A model generated the notes under the pieces. That model saw only the letters and a program-made list of their open reading frames with translations, was not told the origin of the DNA and made no database searches. From assembly GCA_018668195.1 (NCBI GenBank), contig JABITU010000264.1, positions 1 through 9,377 of the forward strand: a stretch of DNA of 9,377 nt, given 5' to 3'. The position numbers were made by a program, and so were the translations under genes. This document shows, in pieces, positions 157 through 9,377 of the stretch (positions are counted from its first letter, which is position 1; every line of letters starts with the position of its first letter). Source of the stretch: Tateyamaria sp. Lineage in GTDB: Bacteria > Pseudomonadota > Alphaproteobacteria > Rhodobacterales > Rhodobacteraceae.

Positions 157-239
157 ATCAGAAATTTTTAGAGTCTCATCACATATGCTGAACCAACATG
201 GCTTTTCACAAGTAAACAGGCAGGCTAGAGCAGTTGAGC

Positions 240-1295
240 ATGAAGAATTTAATTGCCGAATATAACACGCTGGTGAATGCCGGAACAGTGACCGACGATG
301 CAGCTCAAAAGGCCGCTTTGCCCGAGTTTGAACGCATACGGGCGGCTCTCGCGGCGCCTGTCAAACGCGGCTTTTTTCGCAAGGCACCAACGCCGCCAAA
401 AGGCTTGTATCTTTGGGGTGGCGTGGGCCGTGGCAAATCGATGCTCATGGATTTCTTTGTTTCTCACGTTACTGTACCGGCCCGGCGCGTGCATTTTCAC
501 GCCTTCATGCAAGAAATCCACGCGTCTATGCACGAAGCACGCAAACGCGGGGTGGATGATGCTATTGCACCAGTTGCCGCTGATATTGCCGCATCCGTCC
601 GCTTGCTGGCCTTCGACGAAATGCAGATTACCGATATCACAGACGCGATGATTGTTGGCCGCCTCTTTGAGGCGCTTTTTGCAGCTGGCGTCTTGGTCGT
701 GACAACCTCAAACCGAGTGCCCGATGACCTGTACAAAGACGGGCTTAACCGGCAACTTTTTCTTCCATTTATATCGCTCCTGAAAGAGCACATGGTCGTC
801 TGGGAGCTTTCATCCCCCACGGATTACCGTCAGGATCGTCTTGCTGGCAGCCCAACCTATTTCACCCCGCTGGGCTCAGATGCAAGCGCCCAAATGAACT
901 CTGTATGGAAGGATTTTACCGGTGGTGACACCGCTCCACTGGACCTTTTGGTGAACGGCCGCACTGTTACTCTGTCTCAATATCGCAGTGGTGTGGGCAG
1001 AGCCAATTTCTTTGACCTATGCGCCAAGCCCCTCGGTCCAGCCGACTTTCTGGTGATTGCGAATGCATGTAAAGTGCTAATGATCGACGACATCCCAATG
1101 CTGTCACGGAGCAATTTCAACGAGGCTAAACGGTTTGTGACGCTTATAGATACGCTTTACGAAGCACAGGTGCGGTTGATTTGTTCTGCCGCTGCAAAAC
1201 CGGAGATGCTGTATCTTGAGGGGGAAGGCACCTTTGAATTCGAGCGTACGGCATCGCGGCTGCGCGAGATGCAAAGCGAAGACTGGGCGAGCTGA
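240..1295 (+). CDS. zapE: Cell division protein ZapE / AFG1-family ATPase
   Basis: A 351-residue AAA+-like P-loop ATPase of the ZapE/AFG1 (LACE1) family. Family members act at the division site, where ZapE destabilises FtsZ polymers, or in membrane protein quality control in mitochondria. Seen in the sequence: Walker A GGVGRGKS at residues 60-67, Walker B LLAFDEM at 122-128 (Asp126, Glu127), a sensor-type TTSNR at 155-159, and a nearby conserved-looking arginine at 171 (NRQLFLPFI). Length is normal for the family. The frame extends two codons upstream to TTG at 234 (MSMKNL), but ATG at 240 is preferred as the ordinary codon. The Shine-Dalgarno is weak either way (GGCTAGAG, 223-230). It is divergent from the MFS-type gene, convergent with folC, and appears to be a single-gene unit. 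No confident promoter was found upstream. All key motifs look intact. Confidence 0.93.
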   Translation: MKNLIAEYNTLVNAGTVTDDAAQKAALPEFERIRAALAAPVKRGFFRKAPTPPKGLYLWGGVGRGKSMLMDFFVSHVTVPARRVHFHAFMQEIHASMHEARKRGVDDAIAPVAADIAASVRLLAFDEMQITDITDAMIVGRLFEALFAAGVLVVTTSNRVPDDLYKDGLNRQLFLPFISLLKEHMVVWELSSPTDYRQDRLAGSPTYFTPLGSDASAQMNSVWKDFTGGDTAPLDLLVNGRTVTLSQYRSGVGRANFFDLCAKPLGPADFLVIANACKVLMIDDIPMLSRSNFNEAKRFVTLIDTLYEAQVRLICSAAAKPEMLYLEGEGTFEFERTASRLREMQSEDWAS

Positions 1296-1408: not shown

Positions 1409-2689
1409 CTATCCGTTTTCGCGCAAAACGGCGCCCGCAAGATACAGTGAACCGCAAATGAGCACGCGCGCGTGCGGATCATCTGCAAGGATCGCCTGCA
1501 AGGCTTCAGTCACAGTGTCTGCGGCACGGCCTGCAAGCCCGACATGCTGCGCAGCTTGTGCGGTTTGATCTGCGGGCAATGTGTTGGCCTCGCCGGGGAT
1601 TGAAACGCCCGTCAAACTGATGGCGACTTCGGCAAGCGGCGCAAGGTAGCCGTCGACGTCCTTGGTATTGAGCATACCGCAGATCATATGCGTGGGCCGC
1701 TTTGGCAAGCTGCGCAACACCAAAGCCAATGCCGCCCCAGCCGCAGGGTTATGCCCGCCATCCAACCAAAGCTCTGCCCCGGACGCGTTGGCAAGGTTGG
1801 CCAGCGGACCACTGCGCAACCTCTGCATCCGAGCGGGCCAGACCGCTTGAGTTAAGCCTGCCGTGCACGCGGCTTCATCGCAGCCCAGATGGCGCAACGC
1901 GGCCAGCGCAATACCCGCATTCTGAATTTGGTGCAAACCGGGCAAAATCGGCAATGGCAAATCCAGCAAACCCAGCTCATCTTGATAGATCATTCCATCC
2001 CGTTCCGGACCGGAATGCCAATGCTGTCCGTAGGCCAAAACCGGCGCACCGCATTGCGCTGCACGCGCTTCCATAACACCAAGACCGGACTCACTCTGCG
2101 GGCCGATGATACAAGGCACACCCCGTTTTATTATTCCTGCCTTTTCGCCAGCGATTGCAGCAATTGTGGTGCCCAGAAACGCTTCGTGATCCATAGAAAC
2201 TGGCGTGATAATCGTAAGCTCGGGCCTGTCGATAACATTCGTCGCATCAAGCCGCCCACCAAGACCAACCTCTAGCAACGTAAAATCTGCAGGTGTCCGG
2301 GCAAAGGCCAAGAGTGCGGCACAGGTTGTAATCTCAAAATAGGTAATATCGTCTGCGCCGTTCTTTGCATAACATTCGTCTAGCAAAGCTGTCAGATCAG
2401 CTTCGGAAATCAATGTCCCGGCCAGGCGGATACGTTCATGAAACCGCGCCAGATGCGGTGACGTATAAGCATGTACCTTATGGCCCGCAGCCTCTAGCCC
2501 CGCACGGACCATCGCCTGAGTGGACCCTTTACCATTCGTGCCCGCGATGTGGATAACCGGCGGTACGTCATTTTGAGGATTCCCAAGGGCATCCAGCAAG
2601 CGCCATACCCGATCAAGCGTAAGGTCGATGACCTTAGGATGCAGTGCCATCATCCTGGCAAGGATAGCATCCGATGTCTGCGCGGTCAT
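1409..2689 (-). CDS. folC: Bifunctional folylpolyglutamate synthase / dihydrofolate synthase
   Basis: A 426-residue Mur-ligase-family enzyme that adds glutamate to dihydropteroate (making dihydrofolate) and to reduced folates, using ATP in the cytoplasm. Motifs in order: P-loop GTNGKGS at 50-56, YTSPHL at 75-80, [12 protein letters not shown] at 140-151, SMDH at 165-168, GEKAGIIK at 181-188 (Lys188 is the position usually carbamylated), WPARMQRL at 284-291, LDGGHN at 309-314, and a C-terminal CGSLYLAG. Length and domain order are those of the full-length family. The start codon overlaps the accD stop by four bases (ATGA, 2686-2689), so translation is probably coupled to accD. The accD-folC pairing is also known from other proteobacteria, including E. 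coli. Assignment as bifunctional rather than folylpolyglutamate-only is by default for a bacterium with one copy in view. Confidence 0.95.
1413..1431. other. Inverted repeat across the 3' end of folC
   Basis: CCGTTTT-CGCGC-AAAACGG is a perfect 7-bp stem with a 5-base loop, placed over the last codons of folC, two bases inside the stop codon. Together with the hairpin at 1296-1313 it gives a stem at each end of the convergent gap. No T-tract follows it on either strand. It could protect the folC transcript 3' end or be a coincidence of the codons. Confidence 0.25.
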
Positions 2690-3603
2690 GTCTTGGGCGC
2701 ATCCGCGGCATCCGGAATTGCATCAGGTGATGGAAGATCGCCCTTGATAGCGGGCGATAACCCCATGAGCATGCGCGTGATGGTGATCAACTCTTCGCGC
2801 ATGTCGATCCGCGATGTCACACGGTCAAGCATACCATGATCCAGCAGGTATTCGGCGCGTTGAAACCCTTCGGGCAGTTTTTCACGAATAGTCTGTTCGA
2901 TAACACGGGGGCCTGCGAAACAGATCAGCGCGTTGGGTTCGGCAATGTGAACATCCCCCAGCATCGCATAAGAGGCCGTGACCCCACCCGTCGTAGGATG
3001 GGTCAGAACAACAATATACGGCAGCCCCGCTTCCTTCAGCATCTGGACTGCCACGGTGGTGCGCGGCATTTGCATAAGACTAAGGATGCCCTCTTGCATC
3101 CGCGCGCCACCAGCTGCGGAAAATAAAATTAACGGGCGCTTAAGTTTCACAGCTTCTTGAGCGGCGGCAATGATAGCGTTGCCCACGTACATGCCCATCG
3201 AACCGGCCATAAAGCTAAAATCTTGTGCGGCTGCCACGATAGGCGTACGGCCGATTTCACCTGCAGCCACCAACATCGCTTCTTCTTCACCTGAAACCTT
3301 TTGAGCCGATCGCATCCGGTCAGGATACTTCTTTTGATCGCGAAAATGCAGCGGGTCAGAAACAGGTGTTGGGACTTTGATCGATGTAAAGATACCACCG
3401 TCGAACATAGCAGTGAAACGTTCACGCGGCGAAATGGCCATGTGATGGTTACAGTTTGAACAAACGTTCAGGTTCTCGGTAAGCTCACGATGGAACAACA
3501 TCGTGCCGCAAGCGTCACATTTAGTCCACAGGTTTTCCGGTGTTTCACGGCGCGAAAAGATCGAGTTAATCCGAGGCCGAACGTAGTTTGTGATCCAGTT
3601 CAT
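2686..3603 (-). CDS. accD: Acetyl-CoA carboxylase carboxyltransferase, beta subunit
   Basis: A 305-residue subunit that, with AccA, moves the carboxyl group from biotinylated AccB to acetyl-CoA to make malonyl-CoA, the first committed step of fatty acid synthesis. The N-terminus [10 protein letters not shown] and a four-cysteine zinc ribbon (Cys29, Cys32, Cys48, Cys51) are typical. The crotonase-type carboxyltransferase core follows, with glycine-rich [11 protein letters not shown] at 162-172, [17 protein letters not shown] at 201-217 and the [18 protein letters not shown] block at 231-248. The frame opens six codons earlier (ATG at 3621), but ATG at 3603 is chosen because AGGAA lies 8 bases upstream and the family begins with MNW. 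It overlaps folC by four bases. Upstream is a 57-base gap after the CPBP gene with its own promoter-like sequence, so it may be expressed both from the upstream operon and on its own. Confidence 0.96.
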
Positions 3604-3630
3604 GGGGTGTTCCTGCTGCACTGTTAAACT

Positions 3631-3660: not shown

Positions 3661-4566
3661 TCAGGCGCGGATTGCAAAACGTGCTGCCAGCCAGCTGACA
3701 AACATGTATGCAAAGTCGACCGGCAGCCATTCGGCCATCTGTGCTTCATCCGCCACGCCAAAGGGCAAGACATAAAGCGCAAGGCCCGACATCTGATCCG
3801 GAGTGGCAACCAAAACCATGGCTGACACATTGTTAAAAAAGTGTACCGCGATCGCCGGACCAAGGGTGCCTGCCCGAGCTGTCAGGTCCGCCATCAGAAT
3901 TCCAAACATCACCGCCCACAATGCAATCGTCACCGCATTGCTACCAGCGCTATCGGGCAGATAGTGACCCAGTCCAAACAGCCCTGCCGGCAACAGTATC
4001 CAGACCAAGGGCGACCGAAATCGTGCGGCGAGCTGTTGCTGGATATATCCACGAAAAAATATCTCTTCTGCCCCGCTCTGTGCCAAAATAGCGACTAGGG
4101 CAAAAGGCAAAAGCAAAATCCAGCGACCAAAGTTCATATTTTTCTGTAAAGGTTCGCCAGAATTATAGGGCGGCAACACAATCAAGGCGACAGTGAGCAG
4201 TGCCATGGCAGCCGCAACAACAATGAACTGACGCAGTGCCAGCCCAGACGGACCCAAAAGTGTAGAAGGTCCGCGTTTATGCACAATCACGCAGACGATT
4301 GCAGATGCGGCGGCCAGCAAACCAAGCTGGCCCAACAGAACCAACATACCGACCGTTGTTTGACCCGAAGTCGCATCCAAAGCCACCCGACTTGCGATGT
4401 CTGGGCCCATCAAGCCGAACAGCGCGCCAAACAAAATCTGGCTGAGAACGAGGAAAAAACCTGCCACCAGAACAAGGCCAAGTGCAAGACGCCAAACCTC
4501 TGGGTGTACCCGCGCCGGTTCGACATAAAGATCATGAGAACGGTAGTTTAGGGACCAGACCTTCAT
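3661..4566 (-). CDS. CPBP-family intramembrane glutamic protease (CAAX/Abi type)
   Basis: A 301-residue multi-pass inner-membrane protein of the CPBP (Rce1/CAAX protease, Abi) family, which cleaves substrates within or near the membrane. All motifs are present: EE-x3-R (Glu167, Glu168, Arg172 in AEEIFFRGYIQQ), a glycine-rich GLFGLGH ending in His201, and a late VHFFNN (His242, Asn245, Asn246). Hydrophobic stretches at about 27-53, 73-95, 112-131, 147-163, 187-203, 211-228, 234-256 and 282-299 suggest eight membrane segments. The start ATG overlaps the stop of the upstream ABC-like gene (ATGA, 4563-4566), so the two are very probably translated together and may work together. The natural substrate is unknown. 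Family members have been tied to bacteriocin immunity, peptide maturation and regulated proteolysis; nothing here picks among these. Catalytic residues look complete. Confidence 0.9.
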   Translation of the reverse strand: MKVWSLNYRSHDLYVEPARVHPEVWRLALGLVLVAGFFLVLSQILFGALFGLMGPDIASRVALDATSGQTTVGMLVLLGQLGLLAAASAIVCVIVHKRGPSTLLGPSGLALRQFIVVAAAMALLTVALIVLPPYNSGEPLQKNMNFGRWILLLPFALVAILAQSGAEEIFFRGYIQQQLAARFRSPLVWILLPAGLFGLGHYLPDSAGSNAVTIALWAVMFGILMADLTARAGTLGPAIAVHFFNNVSAMVLVATPDQMSGLALYVLPFGVADEAQMAEWLPVDFAYMFVSWLAARFAIRA

Positions 4567-7500
4567 GACTCGCTTTCTGACGTTAGCCGCGCTTCGTCCA
4601 TTGGTATTCCGTCCTGAGATACTTGCATATTTGAGTACCGGACAAAATTAACCACCCCGGTCAGATGTCCAGCAACCGTCTGAAGCATGTTCATTAAAAC
4701 GCTGGCGTCGTTCTCCAGAACAGCGCGGAATTCTTTGGCTCCAAGACGAAGGAATGTAACCTCAGATGTCGCCGTTAGGTTTAACTGCCGGGGTTCATTA
4801 AGAATGATTGCCAGATCCCCGATTAAGCGACCCGGTTCAACATTGGATACCGGCTGCGTTTCGCCATCAGAACCTTGATAACTCAGCAGCGCGGTGCCCG
4901 AGACGCACAAATAGGCCGCATCGGCTTTCTCGTCGACTGAAAAGATGCGCTGCCCGGCTTCTGCTTTATACCATTGCGCGGCAAACGCCAAAAGTCGCTG
5001 ATTGCGGCTTTCGAGCCCAGAAAACATCTCTGTCCGCGTGATAGCGCGCAATTTTCGGCTCAGGTCATCGCCTTCTTCGGTATCATCATGACGCTGCATC
5101 CCATCAATGCGTCCGTCCTCGATCTCAACATACAGATCGTAGGCATCTGGATTTTCAAAGTTTTCCTCTAGAAATACCAACGTCGCTTCGGGGAGCAATT
5201 TACGCAGCTCGTCACGCGTTCTTTGTCGCTGCTGTGCGTTGTGACTGGCCAAAGCACGATCAAGCACCAGCACATCAGGGCGCTTGATCCCTGCCCGTGA
5301 AAAAGCCAAACGCTCATGGAAAATAGTGGGCAGGCGTGCGCCGCCAAGACCTGTGGGGAGGTCAAAGTTTGTCTCAGCTACAAGCCTACGCATACCCTTC
5401 TTGGACAATAATTCGGCCACAACGTCTTCGATCATGTCGGCTCGGGCACCTGCCAATGCTGACACCCGGCCATATAGTGCGTTTTCCAATAGAGTGAGAC
5501 GTGGCAAATACTTGTCAGGCTCAATCGGAACAAAAAGACGGCCAACTTGTTTGCGCAGTGCTGCAGCACTGGTTTTTCGAATTTGCACAATCTCTTTTTT
5601 GAAGCTCTCGGGAAAGGCCGGACCAATCTGTTCAGCGGTAAAGGCAAATGGAACCGTCAAAAGCAGGGTAAATTCATCATTGGTCAGGGCCACATCGCCC
5701 TTTTCGCGCCGCCGGGCGGAAATCTCTACCAGCTGCTCGTAAAGCTCGGCTTCGATATTGAGGGACGTAAAGAGCGGATGTTTGGTGCCGTCCATGCCAA
5801 ACGTTTGGTGCAGCGTTTCGATTAGCAACTGCGAGATTGCAATGCCCTGTTCGGCCAGACCGTGTTCGAATAGCAAATTCATAAACCGCTTGTCTGAAGC
5901 AAGGCCTTGTTGGCTGATTTCACGCGATGGCGCGGCAAACAGGAGGTTGCCACCCAACGGTATTGCCGGATTGAATTCGTCGGGATCAAATCGGTAAACG
6001 ACATCGTCCAGTTTGGTTTCTCTTAGACGTTTCTCGACTTGCGGCCGCAAGTCTACAATGGCCTGTGCCAGTTCGGGATGTTTGGCAGCCTCCATTCGAC
6101 TATCGAGCATTCGACGAAACATGAACTCATCGCTGCCAATGGCCTGCACTAGCTCAAACCACCATTTGCGAACTTCTTCTGCTGATCCAAGTTCAGCGAG
6201 GGACGGATCAAGCCAATCAGATCCAATCGGATCAATACTGTTGCCGGACCGACGCGCTTCATCTTCGAATTTGTTGGGCTTTCCTGGCATGCCACTCTTT
6301 GCTTTTGGCGCAGTCATCAGCGGCATCATCAGATTGCTGCCAAGCGTTCCATCGAAAAGGTAAGGGCGCGAATGCGCATAGCCGATTCGCGCGGCCACAA
6401 TCGACTGGTGTAAAGTAGACAGATTATGCCCCGCAATTGTTACGGTGCCCTGTTTCGGCATAACCTCGCGGGCGAGAAGTTCCGCCAGTGCCGTCCGTTC
6501 GACCTGGCTTTTAACCTTGATGGCAACACGCGCCCCTTGCGGGATAGTCAAATCGATACGCTCAAGAATGGGAGTGTTTTCGTCATTTCGGACTGTGACC
6601 CCGTCAATCACGATATCCCCGCGCAAATGCGGTATGTCTTTGGGTTCACCGTCAAACAGCTTTTCGTCAATCATATTGCGCGGTGCAAAACGCTCAGTCA
6701 CGATTTCCCATCGCAGCGCCATATCTTGGGTCTGATTGTAATAGGTCAGCAGTTCTTTCCATGGGCTGGAAAGATCTTTGTAAGCTGCAAGCGCAGCCAC
6801 CAGAGCGCCAACCGTAATATCCCCACGAATGGCAAGATATCCGCCGACAGAATAGAAAAAAAACGGCGTCAGCTGAGTAATGAAGTTGTTGAGAAACTTC
6901 ATGAAAAATTTTTGCTGGTAAATCTTAAACCGAAGTTCAAAAATTCGGCCCAGACGATAGGTGAACTGAGCCAAGCGATACCTAAGCCCGCCATTCGTGC
7001 GCAGATCAGTTATGCCTGCCGCGCTCTCTCCAATTTCCGAAGAAAACGCGCGAACTTCTTTTATTCGCTCCTTGTTCAGCAGGTTGATCCGTCGTTGTAG
7101 CAGCGGGATCAGCCACGCTTGTAGCGGGATAAGTGCAATAGCCGCCAAGCCAAACCACACCGACTGCATAAATAAAAAGACCACAATAATGAGCATTTGC
7201 CCGGCCTGAAAAACCGGCTGCGCGACCATATCACCCATCAACCCGCCCATGGGCTCAGCCTCGGACGTGACCATGCTGACCAGTTCACCCTGACTGGTTG
7301 AGCGGAAGTAATTGCGCGGAAACCGCAGCATGCGCGATATCAGCTGATACCGAAACCGACGCAACAGGCGTTCAGCAGCGATGCCCTTCATCGTGTTCAG
7401 ACGCATCTTAAGAAGGCCATGCACCAGCACCGAAGCCAGATAGCCAAAGCACAGCGCCATGAGGAATTGGACCTGACCAAGCTCGATGTCAAAGACGGTG

Positions 7501-7658
7501 ATAGTGTCGCCCCTTGCACCGATTGCGTCGTTGATGATCCGCTTGGGCAACTCTAACGTCACAAAAAGAAACGGAAATGTTACAACGGTCAACCCCAGCA
7601 AAAACAGCTGATCACGTTTTGAATACTTCCAGATGAAGGCGAAAAGACTGGCGTCCAT
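4563..7658 (-). CDS. ABC-transporter-like membrane protein with degenerate ATPase domain and C-terminal cyclic-nucleotide-binding-type domain
   Basis: A 1031-residue protein in three parts. Residues 1-325 are an ABC exporter-type membrane domain: hydrophobic segments near 19-36, 65-85, 150-188, 255-275 and 283-297, and the cytoplasmic-loop-like FRSTSQGELVSMVTSEAEP at 118-136. Residues 345-855 resemble an ATPase domain (IDGVTVRNDENTPILERIDL, then a Walker-B-like VLVLD and EDGRI), but the motifs are lost: Walker A reads KVKSQVERT with Arg388 in place of Lys, the Q-loop Gln is Ser430, LSGGQ reads LPTIF (776-780), the catalytic Glu is Arg801, and the H-loop His is Glu831. An insertion of about 270 residues splits the domain. 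Residues 873-1006 form a Crp-type ligand domain. Start at 7658 is supported by AGGAAT six bases upstream. It heads the leftward block and is coupled to the CPBP gene. Transport substrate and ligand are unknown; ATP-driven transport by this chain alone looks unlikely. Confidence 0.85.
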   Translation of the reverse strand: MDASLFAFIWKYSKRDQLFLLGLTVVTFPFLFVTLELPKRIINDAIGARGDTITVFDIELGQVQFLMALCFGYLASVLVHGLLKMRLNTMKGIAAERLLRRFRYQLISRMLRFPRNYFRSTSQGELVSMVTSEAEPMGGLMGDMVAQPVFQAGQMLIIVVFLFMQSVWFGLAAIALIPLQAWLIPLLQRRINLLNKERIKEVRAFSSEIGESAAGITDLRTNGGLRYRLAQFTYRLGRIFELRFKIYQQKFFMKFLNNFITQLTPFFFYSVGGYLAIRGDITVGALVAALAAYKDLSSPWKELLTYYNQTQDMALRWEIVTERFAPRNMIDEKLFDGEPKDIPHLRGDIVIDGVTVRNDENTPILERIDLTIPQGARVAIKVKSQVERTALAELLAREVMPKQGTVTIAGHNLSTLHQSIVAARIGYAHSRPYLFDGTLGSNLMMPLMTAPKAKSGMPGKPNKFEDEARRSGNSIDPIGSDWLDPSLAELGSAEEVRKWWFELVQAIGSDEFMFRRMLDSRMEAAKHPELAQAIVDLRPQVEKRLRETKLDDVVYRFDPDEFNPAIPLGGNLLFAAPSREISQQGLASDKRFMNLLFEHGLAEQGIAISQLLIETLHQTFGMDGTKHPLFTSLNIEAELYEQLVEISARRREKGDVALTNDEFTLLLTVPFAFTAEQIGPAFPESFKKEIVQIRKTSAAALRKQVGRLFVPIEPDKYLPRLTLLENALYGRVSALAGARADMIEDVVAELLSKKGMRRLVAETNFDLPTGLGGARLPTIFHERLAFSRAGIKRPDVLVLDRALASHNAQQRQRTRDELRKLLPEATLVFLEENFENPDAYDLYVEIEDGRIDGMQRHDDTEEGDDLSRKLRAITRTEMFSGLESRNQRLLAFAAQWYKAEAGQRIFSVDEKADAAYLCVSGTALLSYQGSDGETQPVSNVEPGRLIGDLAIILNEPRQLNLTATSEVTFLRLGAKEFRAVLENDASVLMNMLQTVAGHLTGVVNFVRYSNMQVSQDGIPMDEARLTSESES
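4641..5042 (-). other. Cyclic-nucleotide-binding-type (Crp-like) domain of the ABC-like protein
   Basis: Residues 873-1006 begin ITRTEMFSGLESRNQRLLAF and run through AGQRIFSVDEKADAAYLCVS and GRLIGDLAIILNEPRQLNLT to a C-terminal helix with VLMNMLQTVAGHL. This order matches the beta-roll of Crp/Fnr and channel sensory domains. The phosphate-cassette region keeps GDLA (the usual Glu is Asp948) and the arginine after proline (Arg957), but the small residue that usually follows is Gln958. Binding of a cyclic nucleotide is therefore possible but not assured; the domain could bind another ligand or none. No DNA-binding helix-turn-helix follows. Confidence 0.8.
5463..6386 (-). repeat. Three related Q-loop-like segments inside the ABC-like protein
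   Basis: Three protein stretches have the same pattern of short beta strand, aromatic/proline turn and a (E/G/S)N-L/A-L-like helix start. They are residues 425-447 (IGYAHSRPYLF...GSNLMMPL, bases 6318-6386), 553-577 (VVYRFDPDEFNPAI...NLLFAAP, 5928-6002) and 708-732 (LFVPIEPDKYLPRL...NALYGRV, 5463-5537). This pattern matches the Q-loop region of an ABC ATPase, which normally occurs once. The second and third copies are the most alike. It suggests that the insertion grew from duplicated or fused partial ATPase domains. The likeness is by eye and at the protein level only. Confidence 0.45.
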
Positions 7659-7833
7659 GATTATTCCTGATCGATAGGGCCATGCGTCAGGGCTGAAATC
7701 TCAACCCGGCTCGTAAAGTTTGGTCAACGTAGTGATCGCTCCGCAGCATTACAACCGCAGGCAGGCAGCTGGGCGCTTGCAGGTCTGTGGGTCAATGGGT
7801 ATTCCAATTCCCAACGCTTTCAGGGAGGCAGCA
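7659..7833. promoter_or_regulatory. Divergent control region between the ABC-like gene and ilvD
   Basis: This 175-base spacer must hold the start signals of both divergent genes. Rightward, TTGCAG (7777-7782) and TATTCC (7800-7805) are 17 bases apart, a weak match of three of six bases each. Leftward, a TTGACC (complement of 7722-7727) is a good -35 but lacks a clear -10 at the right distance. No leader peptide rich in Ile, Val or Leu codons and no terminator/antiterminator pair was found, so classical ilv attenuation is not supported. Confidence 0.3.
7823..7828 (+). promoter_or_regulatory. ilvD: Strong ribosome binding site fixing the ilvD start
   Basis: GGGAGG lies 5 bases before ATG at 7834. 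An in-frame ATG also exists at 7795 (adding 13 residues, [13 protein letters not shown]) but has no comparable site, so 7834 is taken as the start. Confidence 0.8.
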
Positions 7834-9377
7834 ATGCTAAAAGGCAAGTTCGACAAATCAAAATTGCCCAGCCGTCATGTAACCGAAGGGCCAGCGCGCG
7901 CGCCGCATCGGTCCTATTATTACGCGATGGGCATGACCGAAGAAGAGATTCACCAACCTTTGGTCGGTGTCGCCACCTGCTGGAACGAAGCCGCACCTTG
8001 TAACATCGCCCTGAACCGTCAGGCGCAATCGGTCAAGGTCGGGGTCAAGGCGGCCTCTGGTACTCCGCGCGAATTTACGACCATTACCGTCACCGACGGC
8101 ATCGCCATGGGTCACGAGGGCATGAGATCATCATTGGCCAGCCGTGAAGCCATCGCCGACACTGTCGAACTGACGATGCGTGGTCATTGCTATGATGCGA
8201 TCGTTGGACTTGCCGGGTGTGACAAATCCCTGCCGGGCATGATGATGGCTATGATCCGGCTGAATGTGCCTTCTGTCTTTCTATATGGTGGGTCGATCTT
8301 GCCGGGCCGCGCGCCCAAGGACGCTCAGGTGCCAGCCGAATACGCCAATCGCGACCTGACAGTTCAGGACATGTTTGAAGCCGTTGGCCACCAGCAAAAC
8401 GGCACCATGACAGAAGCCGAGCTTGAAGTTCTTGAGCGTGTCGCCTGTCCATCGGCTGGGGCATGTGGCGGCCAATTCACGGCCAACACCATGGCCTGCG
8501 TATCCGAGGCCATTGGCCTTGCCTTGCCAAACTCGTCGGGGGCACCCGCCCCATACGAATCGCGTGATGAATACGCCAAGGCCTCTGGCGCTGCTGTGAT
8601 GCACCTAATCGAAAAGAATATCCGTGCCCGTGATATCGTTACACGACAATCGCTTGAAAACGCGGCACGTATTGTCGCCTGTACTGGTGGGTCCACCAAT
8701 GCAGGCTTGCACCTGCCAGCCATGGCGCACGAGGCGGGCATCGATTTCTTCCTCGAAGACGTCTGTGACATCTTCCGAGATACGCCTTACTTTGTGGATC
8801 TCAAACCTGGCGGTCAATACGTGGCTAAAGATCTTTATGACGTCGGCGGAGTGCCTGTCGTGATGAAAGAGCTGCGCAAGGCCGGATTGATCCACGAAGA
8901 CTGCATGACCGCCACCGGATACTCTATCGGCGAAGAGCTGGACAAGATCGATCTGCAGGCCGACGGCAAGGTAATCTATCCGGTCGAAACGCCCCTCACC
9001 AAAACCGGCGGTGTTGTTGGCCTCAAGGGGAATGTGGCCCCCGAAGGCGCAATCGTCAAAGTTGCGGGCATGGAAGCCCAGCACCAGATATTTACAGGTC
9101 CTGCCCGCATATTCGAATGTGAACAAGACGCGTTTGAAGCGGTGCAAAACCGAACCTATGAAGAAGGTGATGTTTTCGTCATCCGCAATGAGGGGCCTTC
9201 TGGTGGGCCCGGCATGCGCGAGATGCTGGCAACGACGGCGGCGCTGTCCGGTCAGGGCATGGGCAAAAAGGTTGCGCTGATCACAGATGGTCGGTTCTCA
9301 GGCGCAACACGTGGTTTTTGCGTCGGCCATGTGGGGCCCGAAGCGGCGCACGGTGGCCCGATTGCTTTGCTAAAAGA
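7834..9377 (+). CDS. ilvD: Dihydroxy-acid dehydratase, 3' end cut by window edge
   Basis: The first 514 codons of an enzyme of the IlvD/Edd family that dehydrates 2,3-dihydroxy-3-methylbutanoate and its isoleucine-pathway homologue to the 2-keto acids, the third common step of valine and isoleucine synthesis and a source for leucine and pantothenate. Three cluster cysteines are in place: Cys56 (NEAAPCN), Cys129 (GCDKSLPG, followed by Lys131) and Cys211 ([16 protein letters not shown]). A cysteine at all three sites is the pattern of the 2Fe-2S, oxygen-tolerant branch (plant and Mycobacterium type) rather than the oxygen-labile 4Fe-4S E. coli type. Other family blocks seen are [10 protein letters not shown] at 88-97, [10 protein letters not shown], and [20 protein letters not shown] near the cut. 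An expected length near 575 residues means about 60 residues lie beyond the window. It is divergent from the ABC-like gene; no link in function is evident. Confidence 0.96.

Follow-up and report, generated by a model that had tools for sequence, protein, structure and literature searches.

An ABC exporter-like protein with degenerate ATPase motifs and a cyclic-nucleotide-binding domain, a candidate membrane regulator encoded in front of an independently conserved putative CPBP protease

Exporter-type ATP-binding cassette (ABC) proteins that carry a cyclic-nucleotide-binding domain (CNBD) have a described representative in HetC of Nostoc PCC 7120. The CNBD of HetC is reported to be needed in vivo and to bind ppGpp, and cAMP gave no protection (PMC10986499). 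Here, we analyzed a gene pair from Tateyamaria sp. at positions 3661..7658 of a 9,377-nt stretch of contig JABITU010000264.1, referred to below as the window. The closest named relatives of its proteins also come from Tateyamaria, in line with an origin in the Rhodobacterales. Like HetC, the pair combines an ABC exporter-type protein with a CNBD and links a putative protease to the ABC protein. However, HetC has an N-terminal CNBD, a C39 peptidase domain of its own and an essential ATPase (PMC10986499), whereas the window protein has a C-terminal CNBD and has lost its ATPase site, and the putative protease is the product of a separate CPBP gene. Pfam detected no peptidase domain in the ABC open reading frame (ORF), and the protein is accordingly not of the HetC type.

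Other described systems share one or another part of the pair. The NCBIfam model NF041647 (ABC transporter permease subunit fused to CPBP intramembrane protease) likewise joins an ABC membrane part to a CPBP domain, and because this model exists, an ABC-CPBP link exists elsewhere. However, NF041647 describes one fused protein whereas the window ABC protein is exporter-type with a CNBD, and the window CPBP protein scores 36.4 bits against a cut-off of 435. The exporters PCAT1, TM287-288 and TmrAB (PDB 4s0f, 3qf4 and 6rah) have the same membrane domain and nucleotide-binding domain (NBD) fold as the window ABC protein but lack its destroyed NBD motifs, its expansion of ~290 aa and its added CNBD. 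MmRce1 (4cad), SpdC (6u0o) and the myxosortase MrtX (PMC11980579) share PF02517 and motif residues with the window CPBP protein, whose predicted fold may resemble theirs, though at poor Foldseek E-values for SpdC and Rce1. The window CPBP protein differs from that set in being of a type conserved before accD-folC in the order. Fixed-word searches of the open PMC literature, a body of text outside which most subscription journals lie, returned neither the pair nor the ABC family, with the work on HetC coming closest among the papers listed, and we tentatively regard the family as apparently undescribed.

Both genes of the pair lie on the minus strand. The pseudo-ABC gene (4563-7658, 1031 aa) encodes an exporter membrane domain, a degenerate and expanded NBD and the C-terminal CNBD, as indicated by its ORF, Pfam, PDB sequence matches, an AlphaFold2 model and Foldseek. 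The CPBP gene (PF02517; 3661-4566, 301 aa) encodes a putative intramembrane glutamic endopeptidase, as indicated by its ORF, Pfam, motif, AlphaFold2 model and Foldseek. The two genes overlap by 4 nt at 4563..4566, where the junction reads GTCATGAAG and the ABC stop TGA and the CPBP start ATG share the letters ATGA. An earlier, sequence-only reading of this DNA had reported this overlap together with a partner that lost its catalytic motifs but has a membrane domain and a partner that keeps its CPBP catalytic residues, and had proposed that the two form a dedicated signalling or maturation module. Its observations were confirmed while its interpretation is partly supported. We lean towards a different arrangement, in which a dead, CNBD-bearing exporter serves as a membrane regulator or scaffold and has been placed before an independently conserved protease.

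The degeneration of the ABC protein lies in its NBD. The membrane domain is present (residues 50-290, 6789..7511, minus strand; PF00664 ABC_membrane, 2.1e-19, 70.7 bits) and forms long helices in the AlphaFold2 model, whose best Foldseek matches are the ABC exporters PCAT1 and TmrAB. By contrast, the ABC_tran match falls slightly under the Pfam cut-off (24.5 vs 25 bits), and the features of an active exporter beyond the membrane domain, namely the Walker A Lys, catalytic Glu, signature and H-loop His, are absent. PDB alignment and motif columns place the N-terminal part of the NBD at about residues 347-445 (6324..6620, minus strand), where R388 occupies the Walker A Lys position, and the C-terminal part at about residues 740-855 (5094..5441, minus strand), where the signature position reads LPTIF and is followed by D800, by R801 at the catalytic Glu position and by E831 at the H-loop His position. 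The gap between these two aligned pieces is the expansion of ~290 aa, at about residues 446-739 (5442..6323, minus strand).

These losses are shared by the relatives of the window protein, which belong to one of four types (A to D, described below). Of 1716 close relatives, 120 were listed; all of these type A proteins have Arg in place of the Walker A Lys and none has the catalytic Glu, while 114 retain the Walker B Asp. The H-loop position is Glu in all 14 type A tree rows with a CPBP gene, and the tree rows without the Walker A Lys comprise 19 of type A, 11 of type B and 5 of type C. From what is established about ABC transporters, a protein with such motifs should not hydrolyse ATP. A pseudogene or sequencing artefact was rejected as the explanation: the lengths of the 120 listed relatives range from 979 to 1081 aa, and all have lost the Lys and Glu. 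Because the motif loss is conserved in relatives and the CPBP residues described below are invariant, the pair is neither a chance pair nor a pseudogene with its neighbour. We also considered whether the expansion is a triplicated NBD segment. A type A profile gave no signal of partial duplication. With a type D profile, an alignment between copies 2 and 3 was obtained (prob 94 over 64 columns), and copy 1 has just 23 columns in common with each of them (prob 38 and 70). Triplication was therefore rejected, and we retain a partial duplication in the family, with no claim for the window protein.

The sequence-only reading had called the C-terminal domain Crp-like. A sensory-type domain is indeed present at residues 899-984 (4707..4964, minus strand), but it is better described as a CNBD: PF00027 (cNMP_binding) matches with 8.7e-14 and 51.7 bits against a cut-off of 27.5, and the closest PDB sequence is 5d1i (3.4e-12), with PKA regulatory subunits next among the named matches. 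The phosphate-binding cassette of such domains usually has a Glu and an Arg, with a small residue after the Arg. In the window protein the motif is altered (GDLAIILNEPRQ), with Asp948 at the usual Glu and Gln958 after Arg957, and ligand binding is thus not assured. Unlike CNBDs of the 5d1i kind, the 120 listed type A relatives have Asp for Glu in 120, Arg in 120 and Gln after the Arg in 103. The usual Glu is present in type B (11/11 tree rows, with Ala after the Arg in 10/11) and in most type D CNBDs, and type C rows have Asp (5/5). Of 20 separate type D CNBD genes, 18 matched a regular expression for the motif, two of these with Asp for Glu, and the remaining two read GETAILCDxPR. An anti-phage defence system was considered as well and rejected; PADLOC matched the CNBD region only weakly, to two models of TIR effectors, and the CPBP protein to no model.

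The CPBP protein matches PF02517 (Rce1-like) with 1.7e-16 and 60.7 bits against a cut-off of 22.4, and its AlphaFold2 model has a pLDDT of 84.3. Foldseek with this model ranked SpdC 6u0o first (prob 1.00, E 0.07) and Rce1 4cad fourth (prob 0.54, E 1.5), with no match at E<=0.001. Residues E167, E168, R172, H201, H242 and N246 are invariant in all 76 CPBPs beside an ABC gene and in all 20 without one, in agreement with the sequence-only reading. The Glu-Glu pair, His and Asn are named as critical in the CPBP family (PMC11980579). Another source argues that LnsB and SpdC, CPBP relatives without the catalytic residues, are not proteases (PMC7387801); unlike them, the window protein keeps these residues, and in light of that argument their retention is informative but no proof. 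We therefore treat the CPBP protein as a putative protease, with a function taken from its family. A sorting system of the Mrt/myxosortase type was rejected, as NCBIfam matches lie far under their cut-offs, for example 41.8 vs 130 bits.

A constant partner of the ABC protein emerged from the wider alphaproteobacterial family. A quickly built tree of 59 proteins splits into types A (19), B (11), C (5) and D (24), and the program warned that long branches meet where D joins the rest. The CNBD is fused in types A, B and C, and in type D a separate CNBD gene lies directly downstream of the ABC gene in all 20 chosen loci, which were hand-picked and mostly high-scoring, and also in L183 and L184. 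This statement covers the full-length members examined, L134 and L135 being outside it; relatives L136-L138, which consist of the membrane domain only, have neither NBD nor CNBD in their frames. The recurrence of the CNBD, as part of the protein in some members and as a neighboring gene in others, is the strongest functional link that we found, and the constant partner of this ABC family is the CNBD. By comparison, no CPBP match was present in the flanking sequence retrieved for 18 loci of type B, 6 of type C and 24 of type D or resembling it, while both controls matched. In the class sample, 79 of 240 genomes have a match to type D protein P0329 with E<=1e-30, among them genomes with types A, B or C such as G001, G004 and G005, and the CPBP profile matches 10 of 240, three strongly, all three of which are also in the order sample.

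Not all members of the family are dead, and we rejected that broader claim. In aligned columns of 30 type D loci, the Walker A Lys is kept in 23, the catalytic Glu in 15 and the H-loop His in 13; the 120 listed type D proteins of another set have neither the Lys nor the Glu. As NBD residues persist in some type D proteins, the motifs look to have been lost stepwise. One type D protein, in L203, has the Walker A sequence GSTGGGKT, the catalytic Glu and the H-loop His, with Asn in place of the Walker B Asp; this relative with nearly intact NBD motifs could possibly work.

Type D genes often lie among glycan-related neighbors. Glycosyltransferase-like genes are present in 19 of the 20 chosen D loci, with L222 showing none, although some queries match the same ORF in L224, L227 and L238, and a histidine phosphatase is present in 18. 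Pfam names for these neighbors come from single representatives, and one glycosyltransferase-like protein has no Pfam match. Across L221-L240, L184 and L131, the glycosyltransferase-like genes and the histidine phosphatase are often accompanied by a protein without Pfam match that we take to be polysaccharide-deacetylase-like. L131, a type C locus with a fused CNBD, lies in the same glycosyltransferase cluster; this cluster was not found at the other type C loci examined (L130, L176 and L178) or at the type B loci L113 and L117.

How tightly is the ABC gene bound to the CPBP gene? A contig scan with the ABC alignment gave 520 relatives, of which the best 80 were kept as named loci. CPBP profile matches lie downstream of the ABC gene in 77 of these 80, the match in L013 being a mere fragment at a contig end. 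The contig of L077 stops 104 nt past the ABC gene, and in L043 and L071 accD follows directly, with no match to the CPBP profile anywhere in either genome. Junctions, with start codons assigned by script, were measured in 76 of the 80 loci and comprise 58 overlaps (23 of 4 nt) and 18 gaps of 1-19 nt. Among 390 genomes of the order, at least 112 contain an ABC gene that matches at E<=1e-30 (two such matches in 81), and at least 304 have a CPBP match at E<=1e-15; both counts are lower bounds, with two ABC candidates and six CPBP candidates scored per genome. All type A and type C places are among the matches listed, and CPBP places were examined among the matches listed. A CPBP gene is adjacent and on the same strand in 76 of the 85 listed type A or C copies. 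The other nine are six type C copies elsewhere and three type A copies (G183, G319 and G312) with accD next and no CPBP there. The copy in G156, which is outside the tree, was called type C by the resemblance of its flank to that of G067.

Adjacency thus stands for the window type, with 76 of 79 type A genes next to a CPBP gene, but exclusivity does not. A CPBP gene without an adjacent window-type ABC gene occurs in 228 of the 304 CPBP genomes, and the ABC gene occurs without CPBP in G002, G003, G183, G319 and G312. The ABC gene was retained with CPBP gone in loci L043, L071 and L180-L182, on three separate branches. On the tree, the type A rows without CPBP imply a minimum of 3 label changes; since ABC-less relatives do have CPBP, we interpret these changes as losses. 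The genes therefore do not occur only with each other, as an obligate system would have them; the coupling proposed by the sequence-only reading is conserved and tight in one clade, and free occurrence of each gene, which that reading had named as evidence against itself, is largely the case for the protease.

Conserved adjacency by itself can mislead, since the more widespread neighbor of the protease is accD-folC and not the ABC gene. In the window, accD (2686-3621, minus strand) follows the CPBP gene, as it does with the ABC gene present or not, and the next gene of the conserved block is a Mur-ligase-family gene (1409-2689, minus strand) that we presume to be folC; both were assigned by Pfam and locus comparison. 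We compared 20 ABC-less CPBP loci of Rhodobacterales (L156-L175), hand-picked from listed places rather than at random: 12 come from genomes for which no ABC match is listed, 7 from genomes with a single listed match (type B, or G004, where the ABC place is outside those listed) and 1 from G108, which has a type C copy elsewhere. CPBP precedes accD and folC in all 20, at a spacing of at most 150 nt in 18 and of about 1 and 1.4 kb in L174 and L175, and ilvD is divergent on the other side of CPBP in 11. Among 110 type A loci, both CPBP and accD lie after the ABC gene in 106; of the other four, L043 and L071 have no CPBP and two lack both genes, in keeping with the contig ends of L013 and L077. 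These gene orders are most simply read as an arrival of the ABC gene ahead of CPBP in a single clade.

We next consider evolutionary signals of a functional link, which are mixed. No CPBP columns tracked the presence of the ABC gene at the thresholds used. Evolutionary rates were taken relative to AccD and FolC and set against 74 references, with L071 outside the test for having no full FolC. The ABC protein of the CPBP-less locus L043 is not accelerated (23 of 74 references are lower), nor is the CPBP protein in four near relatives without a neighboring ABC gene (L156, L157, L158 and L168).

On the arrangement that we lean towards, the ABC gene product would be a catalytically dead exporter, type A of the larger alphaproteobacterial family, and most likely not a pump but a membrane regulator or scaffold. 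Its membrane domain and cytoplasmic CNBD are kept. The state of the CNBD would pass through the expanded NBD to the membrane domain. The CPBP protein would be an intramembrane glutamic endopeptidase of the older CPBP-accD-folC block that works without the ABC protein. In a Roseobacteraceae-centred clade the ABC gene would have come between ilvD and CPBP, so that both proteins would be made together from overlapping genes. Several points weigh against this arrangement. All 76 measured junctions are tighter than mere neighborhood needs. The ABC proteins of the CPBP-less loci L180-L182, which form one branch, evolve faster than all 74 references, as if a partner had been lost, and the CPBP protein is fast (above at least 73 of 74 references) in 7 of the 20 loci without a neighboring ABC gene (L159, L160, L166, L167, L169, L173 and L174), most of them distant. 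Loss of the ABC gene elsewhere is an alternative to its insertion. In addition, the AlphaFold2 model of the ABC protein, from a 30-row alignment, is of moderate quality only (pLDDT 70.7, pTM 0.48), and judging from its altered motif we are unsure whether the type A CNBD acts as a sensor.

The tight junctions, the adjacency of 76 of 79 type A genes and the contrast between inactive ABC motifs and intact protease motifs would suit the dedicated module of the sequence-only reading, in which the dead ABC protein binds a ligand and gates or feeds the protease by direct contact, as would the faster ABC evolution in one CPBP-less clade and the NF041647 fusion model, weakly as it matches. However, the 228 genomes with CPBP and no adjacent window-type ABC gene, the accD-folC order kept without an ABC gene in 20 of 20 loci, the five genomes with the ABC gene and no CPBP, the lack of ABC-linked CPBP columns and the unaccelerated L043 protein argue against it, and we consider such a module unlikely. 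Direct control of the protease by the ABC protein is possible but unproven, and because each gene also occurs without the other, the pair is probably not one dedicated machine. At the other extreme, two unrelated membrane-protein genes might share a transcript through position only. The separate occurrence of both families, the unchanged accD-folC context of CPBP and the absence of covarying columns are consistent with this, but throughout the clade the gene order and the tight junction have been preserved, which speaks against it, as does the ABC acceleration in one CPBP-less clade, and we give it a small but real chance. An exporter fold with its membrane domain could also belong to the degenerate-site half of a heterodimeric exporter driven by an ATPase-competent partner encoded elsewhere, and some distant type D relatives do keep the Walker A Lys (23/30) and the catalytic Glu (15/30). 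However, both residues are gone in all 120 listed type A relatives, degenerate halves of heterodimers usually retain nucleotide-binding residues, and a Pfam scan of six window genes showed no intact half-ABC partner, which makes a working exporter half quite improbable.

The rest of the window and some loci of relatives yielded further observations. Upstream of the pair, ilvD is divergent and runs off the window (7720-9375, plus strand; ORF, Pfam and locus comparison), and an AFG1-like ATPase gene assigned by Pfam lies beyond the folC-like gene on the strand opposite to the pair (234-1295, plus strand). In L113 (1-4894), a type B gene adjoins an Omp85/POTRA gene, presumably TamA-like, and a long frame without Pfam match at the end of the locus. 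The type C gene of L130 (1601-4638) and the distant relative in L185 (9494-13428) adjoin genes that Pfam identifies as ABC and HlyD, which we take to be type I secretion genes. The genes for the relatives in L136-L138 (434-465 aa) are flanked by cupredoxin-like and cytochrome c genes, Pfam having been applied to L137 only. Finally, L183, in which a distant relative is accompanied by a separate CNBD gene, has nearby an 814-aa frame (9828-12272) that combines a CNBD with pyridine-nucleotide oxidoreductase and 4Fe-4S domains.

A bolder proposal would make the CNBD, fused or neighboring, the controller of a dead ABC exporter that acts as a membrane switch throughout the class, a system first tied to glycan clusters and then re-wired in marine Roseobacteraceae to gate a CPBP protease encoded by an overlapping gene; we think it improbable in this full form. 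Returning to the dead exporter as regulator or scaffold, ABC proteins turned regulators exist in animals (SUR). If the CNBD steers the membrane protein without ATP, the window protein and its relatives would offer a testable case of signal transfer via a former pump.

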